NCBI GenBank assembly: GCA_018389105.1
Contig: JACATO010000304.1
Coordinates: 2,480,001-2,544,000 of the forward strand
Length of the DNA: 64,000 nucleotides
Reading direction: 5' to 3'
DNA from: Nautilus pompilius
Taxonomy: Eukaryota; Mollusca; Cephalopoda; Nautilida; Nautilidae
In this document: positions 12,427-15,400 of the stretch, piece by piece
Layout of the letters: the number at the start of each line of letters is the position of its first letter
How positions within the stretch are numbered: position 1 is the first letter of the stretch
Translations under genes and position numbers: made by a program
Notes under the pieces: model-generated
Database searches by the model: none
The model's input: only the letters and a program-made list of their open reading frames with translations
Told to the model about the DNA's origin: nothing

Positions 12427-15400
12427 GTAGGAGAATTTTGTTTGTTTGTGTATGTGTGTGTGTGTGAGAGAGAGAGAGATTGTGTGAGATTGTGAAACTA
12501 GTGATTTCATGAAATTTTCATGTTATCCAATGGTTATATTTGCTTCTGATTTAACATTTCTTTATTTATTTTATCAAAACAATATTGTAAAGTGTGCATT
12601 TATTAAAGTTTACTGCTTTATGGCTATAGTTGCAATACTTAATTGAGAATGGTGTTTAGTGCAGAGCCCCTATAAATAACAGAGCAATACTTAATTTACC
12701 TTATTATACTAAAAATACATTTTTGCACTGCAATATTTTGTTTAGGGTGATGCAGTGTTTGGCTGCTAGTATAAGTCATAATATTATTTTGTATTAATAG
12801 CAGAGGATTTGAAATTATTTGGATGCACAAATGTACATTTTTGGCTAATGTTTGGAAGATTAATCTGTGCTGCATGCAAGCAGCAGCTTTTTTTGCATGG
12901 ATGATTGCTTATGTCAAAAGTCATTAAAAGATTTTCTGGTTAGATTGTTTTTGTAAGTAGTAGAGTAACAGAAATAGTTTTTTACTGCTAGCTGGTAGTG
13001 TGATCATTTGTTACAGGTAAATACGGTGGCATCAGCAGATTGGCTGAATCAAATTGATTAGATAAGAAAAATTCTTAGGAAATGCAATTTCATTAAAACA
13101 GAAGGCCATACCTGCAACATTTTCATTACTTCATCTCTCATTTGTTCTGTTATGTGCCAAATTGGCAGAAGTAGACATTCTTTTTTTGGCTGTGTTTTGT
13201 ACTTTCTACCTCTCCACTAATTTGCTCTTTCTCTGTTTATTAAAATTATTAGATTGTCAGATTGATCAAACATTGATTTATTAAACAGTCACAAAATGCA
13301 TAGCCATCATGTGAAAAACTGCACAATTTGAAGCAAATGAGAGGATGCAGATAAATTAAAAAAATTTTGTTTGTTGTTATTAAATATGAGAGCGAAAAAA
13401 TTGTAATGAAATACTAGTCTAAAAAAACAGTTGCATACGAGGTCTGTCCAAAAAGAAACTGAACTTTTAAAACAACGCGCCAACCAGCCGGCGCAATGTA
13501 ATCACGACTGTGGTGCTGTGTATCGGTGACCTTGACCTTCAGTCTAATAATAGCTGCATCACACCACGTAAGTTAGTCATCGATCTACACGCGCTAGAGT
13601 GAACGTATGTTTAGTGCACGGCGATTTGTCGCAAGTTGAACATTGAAGGATCTTGAAGAGCAACGTGTTTGTGTGAAATTCTGTTTCAAATTGGAAAAAA
13701 CTTTTAAGGAGACTTTTCTAATGTTGCAACTGGCCTATGGGGAGGATTTTTGAGCCATACACAATGTCACAAGTAGTACCAGCGTTTCAAATCTGGAAGA
13801 ACATCCACTGAAGACAATCCCAAATCTGGACGACCTGCCACGACAACAGACGACGCTCACATTGCGAAAATGCGTGCTGTGATCCGTGGAAATCGTTGCC
13901 TGACTGTCCATGAAGAAGTAGGCATCTGTAAATGTTTGTGCCACATGATTTTAAAAGAAAAATTGCACATCGTGTAGCCGCAAAATTTGTGCCAAGTCTG
14001 CTGACAGATGAACAAAAAGAGAACCGAGTCGCAGTCATTCAGGAGCTCTTTGATTGTTCGAATGCTGATGAAAGCTTTCTGAAAAGCAAATCCAGAGAGT
14101 AGGGCGGCTGAGGGACGAGAGTCATCTTGTGCTTTACCAAAAAGTCACAGATGAGGAGTGACAAGTGAGCAGGTGCGTTGTTTTGGTGCAGCATTCAGGT
14201 TTTGTTTTTCCATGCCTCAGGCCTCCTTCACTCCGCCTTTCTCAACAGCCTCAGGACATCCAAATAAAACTCTTTATTGATCGTCTGACCACATGGAACA
14301 AACTCATGATGAACGATGCCCTTCCAATCAAAAAAGACGATCAGCATCACTTTCACATTTGAGCAACTCTGACGTGATTATTTTGGTCGCAGCAATGATG
14401 ATTCAACCTGTGACATGCCTGTTTGTTTTGACATCGTAGCCATACACCCACGTTTCGTCATCTGTTATGACACTTTTCAGAAAGCTTTCATCAGCATTCG
14501 AATGATCAAAGAGCTCCTGACTGACTGTGACTCGGTTCTCTTTATGTTCACCTGTCAGCAGGCGTGGCACAAATTCTGCAGCTACACGATACATGTTCAA
14601 TTTTTCTTTTAAAATCATGTGGCATGAACTTTTACAGATGCCTACTTCTTCAGAAACTTCACGGACAGTCAGGCAACGATTTCCACGGATCACAGCTCGC
14701 ACTTTCTCAATGTGATCGTCGTCCATATTTGGGATTGTCTTTGGTGGATGTTCTTCCCAATTTGAAATGCTGGTACTATTCGTGACATTGTGTATGGCTA
14801 AAAAATCCTCCCCATAGGCCTGTTGCAACATTAGAAAAGTCTCCTTAAAAGTTTTTCACAATTTGAAACAGAATTTCACACAAACATGTTTTTCTTCAAG
14901 ATCCTTCATTGTTCAACTTGCGACAAATTGCTGTGCACTAAACATACGTTCACTCTAGTGCGTGTAGATTGATGACTAACTGCCGTGGCATGATGCGGCT
15001 ATTATTAGATTGAAGGGAAAGGTCACTGATGCACCAGCTGGTTGGTGCGCTTTTTTAAAAGATTGGTTTCTTTTTGGACAGACCTCGTATAATATGTTCT
15101 AGCATTGTTTATTATTGAAGTTTTTTTTAAAAGTGGATTTAAGATGATAATTTTGAAAAAAAAAAGAAGAAGATAGATGTAGTTTGTAATGAAGGGGCAA
15201 TCAATTTCATTGCTAATGATTATCCAGAGACAGAAAAATTTTGCAGTTTTGCAAACTTCTTTGTTTATTAAGATTTTGGAGATTTGTCAGATTCTCTTCC
15301 CCTTGTAATTATGGCCCCACAGTTTATTTGTCACCGGAGTAAAGTAATTTTTTGTTAGATAAACATGTGATATTATTGGAAAACAATAATGGACTTGGAA

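Follow-up and report, generated by a model that had tools for sequence, protein, structure and literature searches.

A mariner transposon that carries its 5′ end twice lies at positions 13438-15087 of the stretch of Nautilus pompilius DNA analyzed here (contig JACATO010000304.1, 2,480,001 to 2,544,000, 64,000 nt; “the window”, whose numbering is used throughout). The unit is a fold-back, and it transposed as a fold-back: the junction between its two inverted copies recurs at many places in the genome, mostly within TA sites and unrelated flanking sequences in the copies that were read. We regard it as very probable that the window copy belongs to a fold-back family that is mobile and non-autonomous and descends from a DD34D mariner, with the history of origin, amplification and maintenance that we set out below. 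What is surprising in this family is the doubled 5′ end together with successful amplification and a measurable conversion between the arms.

The window copy measures 1650 nt between its TAs, and both of its arms are the 5′ part of a mariner. The left arm (13438-14086, + strand, 649 nt) consists of the 5′ untranslated region (UTR) and the N-terminal part of the transposase from one mariner copy, and ends just ahead of the TGDE motif containing the first catalytic Asp. The right arm (14473-15087, − strand, 615 nt) is the same 5′ part inverted, and the centre (14087-14472, − strand, 386 nt), which holds the transposase catalytic region, extends the right copy only, as seen against eight ordinary copies. 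These lengths reproduce to the base the architecture described in an earlier note on this DNA, namely inverted arms of about 650 and 615 bases around a one-copy centre of 386 bases. Aligned end to end with the flanking ATA included (13435-14086, +, against 14473-15090, −), the arms give 665 columns with 553 identities, 52 mismatches and 60 gap columns, i.e., 91% identity. A 5′ inverted terminal repeat (ITR) was assigned at the left (13438-13468, +) and the right end (15057-15087, −) from the match between the ends and from the ITR consensus. The note had also placed the same mariner 5′ repeat at both termini and a TA duplication around the unit, and both are there: the 19-mer ACGAGGTCTGTCCAAAAAG stands at each end with 0 mismatches, where such a site is expected 0.00 times in shuffled windows even when 3 mismatches are allowed, and the target-site duplication occupies 13436-13437 on the left and 15088-15089 on the right, as judged from the sequence and from family copies. 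Direct repeats within the window copy are two-copy only and 18-21 nt long. Plasmid and viral contig collections yielded no relatives, one 150-aa frame had no match in PDB, and Rfam at gathering thresholds reported nothing in the window.

The junction was searched for in the 728-Mb source genome using a pattern that spans it, with up to 3 mismatches allowed and the reversed pattern as control. The earlier note had set this search beforehand as the test of mobility, with a junction present at one locus only as part of the outcome that would speak against it. The window version of the pattern was found at 69 places and a commoner version containing CpG at 73 places, the reversed control yielding 0 for each, and the result is many copies at different TA sites. 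A pattern of equal length across the break that is absent from fold-backs occurs at 397 places, and comparison with the 73 therefore makes fold-backs very roughly one in six. When the whole element was used as the query and 40 of 964 candidates were scored, 22 were fold-back matches (two of them, L021 and L022, truncated) and 18 matched the right copy only; the latter behave as ordinary elements, eight of them having been read. This sample was chosen without the junction, which is present and ungapped in 21 of its 22 fold-back loci and shifted in the remaining one, L009, and all 21 further loci that were read carry it, these having been selected by the junction itself. Both ends are recognizable in 27 of 34 two-armed loci, and in 21 of the 27 TA stands on both sides (20 of 26 when the insertion represented by L012 and L013 is counted once). 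In the fold-back copies examined the palindrome ends at TA. Flanks are unrelated among the compared loci, 22 in one set and 34 in another, with the exception of L012 and L013, and other flank similarity is confined to a few stretches of 39-105 nt that match within a locus or from one locus to another. Recurrence of the junction, unrelated flanks and paired TAs together uphold the transposition in fold-back form that the note had put forward. L012 and L013 lie about 161 kb apart on the same contig with flanks 99-100% alike, and are one duplicated insertion. Miniature inverted-repeat transposable elements (MITEs) are typically under about 600 bp. The present family resembles them in having many copies with a common breakpoint (73 places, and 21 of the 22 junction-independent loci), and at 1650 nt it exceeds them in size.

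As a reference for the ordinary mariner we used the eight copies that resemble the window copy most closely (L023-L030, from the same genome), which define an element of about 1.3 kb (L023 is without its 3′ ITR). Derivation of the fold-back from the DD34D mariners fits its TA target site, its ITRs of about 30 bp, and the helix-turn-helix (HTH) and DDE transposase domains of its right-copy consensus. The ordinary element shares ITRs, 5′ UTR and transposase sequence with the fold-back, and all differences between the two consensus sequences are of the C/T or G/A kind, apart from a 20-bp deletion frequent in the ordinary copies read; unlike the fold-back, the ordinary element has a 3′ end, the third catalytic Asp and a 5′-3′ layout. 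Set against the eight copies, the fold-back lacks the terminal ~265 nt of the ordinary mariner, so that the absence of the 3′ terminus asserted in the note holds in a refined form: since the 5′ and 3′ ITR consensuses (eight 5′ ends, seven 3′ ends) match over 31 bp except at position 24, a CpG, the missing end is visible in the subterminal sequence and not in the ITR. The description of the arms as the 5′ half of the transposase gene likewise stands in part, in that both arms represent the 5′ part but the right copy continues to about Mos1 residue 280. A consensus built from 29 right copies forms a single open transposase frame but for one stop, at which the ordinary copies have CGA. It contains PF17906 (HTH_48, the HTH in Mos1 transposase; E 2.8e-12) and PF01359 (Transposase_1; E 5.6e-18) and aligns to Mos1 residues 8-280 (E 2.5e-39); the window copy's own frames contain PF01359 alone (14228-14377, E 8.5e-9). 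With D284 as the third catalytic Asp of Mos1 and DD34D as the spacing of the family, the right copy breaks off about 4 residues ahead of this Asp. The fold-back thus has neither the complete catalytic triad nor the pair of 5′ and 3′ ends, and because the break precedes the third Asp and both ends are 5′ ends, we classify it as a derivative and not as an autonomous mariner. Judging from its sequence, the most it could encode is a protein that binds DNA and whose catalytic site is incomplete. The 20-bp deletion mentioned above affects the transposase frame in five of the eight ordinary copies read, with a larger one in L030, and is either shared or recurrent; because of such deletions many ordinary copies are themselves non-autonomous. 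L027, an ordinary copy on the window's contig, has a 9-bp deletion and a rare substitution in common with the left arm of the window copy, through either exchange between loci or recurrent change.

The fold-back would have originated early in the life of the parent family, through a blunt join of two opposed 5′ parts at one point. Relative to the ordinary element, GAAAAG of one copy abuts CAAATCC of the other at 14086/14087, with 0 shared bases at the break, i.e., without microhomology. The opposed parts may have come from one copy via template switching or from two near-identical convergent copies joined by a deletion, and both fit; the product in either case would carry two outward 5′ ITRs while lacking a 3′ end. 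Consensus sequences built from 41 left and 33 right arms disagree at 2 of 668 sites, the centre (29 right copies) differs from the consensus of the eight ordinary copies at 8 sites, all C/T or G/A, and left arms (40), right arms (32) and ordinary copies (8) are equally distant, about 7%, from their common consensus. Because of this near-identity and these equal distances, the fold-back was probably formed in the youth of the family, from one copy or two nearly identical ones. Rare variants are shared 321 times among fold-back arms (299 expected) and 53 times between these and ordinary copies (73 expected). Amplification of the product would account for the shared junction, TA sites and flanks described above. 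Since the catalytic Asp is lost and the ITRs are near-identical, we infer that the transposase of the ordinary element acted in trans on the two ITRs, and the near-identity of the ITRs also means that this transposase should accept two 5′ ends. According to the available part of a study of mariner ends in vitro, doubling the preferred end raises activity to 26 times that of the natural pair for Mos1 (two right ends) and to 2 times for Mboumar-9 (two left ends), and two copies of the poorer end perform worse than the natural pair (PMC4505599).

After insertion, the two arms of an element appear to have been kept alike by gene conversion, which is indicated by the statistics of their variants, the mechanism itself being our inference. 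The arm tests cover 61 loci and not all 73 places. The arm statistics omit L013 (which duplicates L012), arms no longer than 440 nt, and L021_R, which is partial; the doubleton, side-sharing and tract tests also omit, out of excess caution, L048_R, L053_R and L061_R, and the last two of them L052_L. The left and right arms of one element are on average 0.0877 apart and arms taken from different elements 0.1133 (0 of 20,000 permutations fell as low; 33 elements), and at sites free of CpG, TpG and CpA the values are 0.0536 and 0.0700 (again 0 of 20,000). This distance test omits only L013, L021_R, L052_L and short arms, adds L007 and L009, and agrees with the result from the narrower sample. For 15 of the 33 left arms the nearest right arm is their own. 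Variants private to two arms fall in one element in 39 of 237 cases, where 2.3 are expected, and in 21 of 138 (1.4 expected) once CpG-type sites are left out. Shared and discordant sites are clustered in tracts, with 94 alternations against 120.7 +/- 6.3 and 0 of 5,000 shuffles reaching this. In 756 unlike arm pairs the longest identical run between arms never exceeds 122 nt, its median being 38 nt; 9 of 28 elements lie above 95% of these pairs and 4 of 28 above all, and in L055 the arms share an identical run of 215 nt with eight derived sites. It is the sharing within elements, combined with the tracts, that indicates conversion between arms. Conversion from arm to arm would leave some elements nearly perfect palindromes. 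The best-matched palindrome is L055, with arms 2.4% apart and a target site of CA/TG instead of TA/TA; CA and TG being complementary, it looks as if conversion had traversed the target-site duplication.

Several observations weigh against this reading as a whole. TA on both sides is missing in 6 of the 27 two-ended copies, and in L009 the junction is shifted by about 10 and 8 nt. The L009 junction contains about 10 nt found beside the break in the right copy, and the L009 arms have 6 mismatches in the inner 300 columns and 23 in the outer 369, as expected if conversion had run past the arm end and copied those ~10 nt. For 19 of the 28 elements the longest identical run does not rise above that of 95% of unlike pairs, so that part of the elements only give clear signs of conversion, and the window copy, with its arms 9.6% apart, is not notably converted. 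No gradient of arm identity toward the junction was found in seven bins over 31 elements (within/between ratio 0.67-0.92), and a G+C bias at converted sites (41:30 against 196:237, p 0.055; private sites 10:2) is a hint only. Distances are star-like, as far as distances alone tell. Rare variants are shared between different elements by 170 pairs of same-side arms (187 expected) and 151 pairs of opposite arms (178 expected), a ratio of 1.13 where 1.05 is expected. Prolonged multiplication as fold-backs should give clear side-specific sharing, whereas a burst from one source would not; since no fold-back lineage is visible in the sharing of variants, the single origin rests mainly on the identical junction.

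The window copy sits in an intron predicted for a TGF-beta/activin type I receptor gene. Upstream, a predicted exon at 12288-12383 (+; tblastn E 0.018) corresponds to the end of the ligand-binding domain, and PF01064 (Activin_recp) matches 12255-12420 with E 2.5e-4 and 22.4 bits against a cut-off of 20.9. Downstream, exons for the GS motif and the kinase of the same receptor are predicted from tblastn and Pfam between 26140 and 37717 on the + strand (26140-26373, 27802-27978, 30844-30948, 31450-31671, 34521-34676 and 37592-37717), with PF08515 (TGF_beta_GS) and PF07714 matching 26062-26388. The same predicted intron holds the remains of a pogo/Tigger-type transposon (17556-19096, −; DDE_1, CENP-B_N and HTH_Tnp_Tc5), and a second DDE_1 transposase fragment lies at 9626-9970 (−). 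Because predicted receptor exons lie on either side of it, the fold-back should belong to the receptor pre-mRNA. A transcript across the element, such as this pre-mRNA, would fold into a long hairpin: folding of the window copy's RNA (without a shuffled control) predicts −1072 kcal/mol with 566 of 695 pairs joining the arms, in line with the hairpin that the note had anticipated. An effect of the fold-back through small RNAs is a possible consequence of this predicted fold.

Among the competing explanations, the one that survives best takes the fold-back for a natural silencing locus, kept because its hairpin RNA feeds small RNAs against the parent mariner in the manner of maize Mu killer. The predicted fold and the position in a predicted intron agree with this, and the available text on Mu killer supplies the precedent; that same text, however, favours antisense transcripts over a hairpin for the silencing by Mu killer itself (PMC3440606), and mobility alone accounts for 73 copies. 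On balance we consider such a silencing locus improbable. The fold-backs may instead have formed in place, ordinary mariners having been turned into fold-backs repeatedly at one point. The arms of one element would then share that element's own mutations, and variants private to the arms of one element are indeed found, along with scarcely any side-specific sharing between elements and star-like distances. Yet a blunt junction without microhomology is identical at 73 places, sharing is patchy and in tracts where copying in place should share evenly, and no 3′-3′ counterpart turned up when 40 of 912 candidate 3′ ends were scored and judged by eye; recurrent formation in place is thus less probable still, and we give it little weight. 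Segmental duplication of one locus in place of transposition is true to the near-identical flanks of L012 and L013, but other pairs share no more than about 64 nt of flank among the 22 and 34 loci and the palindrome ends at TA, so that it was rejected for the compared loci other than these two, with hardly any probability left to it. Inverted duplications are a known class of assembly artefact, but a hairpin-type chimera was rejected as extremely unlikely, given window arms that differ at 52 of 605 aligned bases and a junction repeated at 73 places with different flanks in those read. A rearrangement confined to a single locus was likewise rejected on the count of 69 or 73 places.

Transposition in fold-back form, as opposed to these alternatives, provides evidence from nature that a mariner can move and multiply with two 5′ ends, and a transposon seems able to remain mobile after loss of its normal 3′ end; the other evidence we found for mariners with two like ends comes, within the available text, from plasmid assays (PMC4505599). 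Dozens of independent palindromes of similar divergence also allow conversion between inverted arms to be measured. Inverted transposase genes that are dispersed, at least one of them in a predicted intron, could start silencing of the family and would make a possible animal counterpart to Mu killer. One may further imagine a self-spreading hairpin parasite: doubling of the 5′ end would have given a mariner derivative two equal ends and an inverted transposase gene, making every new insertion at once a good substrate for transposition and a source of double-stranded RNA against its parent, its hairpin kept matched by conversion. If true, this would amount to an animal Mu killer that moves, but we think it unlikely.

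No account of a fold-back mariner with two 5′ ends was found in titles and abstract starts among the matches listed, most subscription journals lying outside the coverage, and none of the literature matches to the ITR letters concerned transposons as judged by title. A paper on Drosophila mariners (PMC4161770) does not, in its accessible part, use the words palindrome, fold-back or hairpin. Elements of the Foldback type, Galileo and Tetris among them, have long inverted arms as here, but Galileo belongs to the P superfamily, and its long arms are internally repetitive and, from what is accessible of these sources, do not derive from a mariner 5′ part (PMC4168063; PMC3573991; PMC4079207). The internally repetitive long arms of Drosophila Foldback are not seen in the window copy, whose arms are mariner 5′ sequence. 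Made1 is a palindromic element of Hsmar1 mariner origin, about 80 bp long and without transposase sequence. It is described, in the text available, as a short inverted-repeat element and the source of human mir-548, its hairpins having become microRNA genes (PMC1784062). The mariner MITEs of aphids and Rhodnius are, like the fold-back, non-autonomous, with common breakpoints, TA sites and presumed mobilization in trans, although those in the accessible parts of the two reports arose by internal deletions and not by inverted 5′-5′ fusion (PMC5490172; PMC4678618). Donors engineered from Mos1 and Mboumar-9 to carry two identical ITRs transpose, and do so better than the natural pair if the preferred end is doubled; these are laboratory plasmids, to the extent that the source is available, and the fold-back is their natural counterpart (PMC4505599). 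The nearest known design is Mu killer (Muk), a derivative of maize MuDR in which like ends flank an inverted part of the transposase gene. As far as the accessible text goes, Mu killer is a Mutator element at one locus whose silencing has been shown genetically, whereas the fold-back described here is a mariner, a dispersed family, and the source of a hairpin that is predicted only (PMC3440606).
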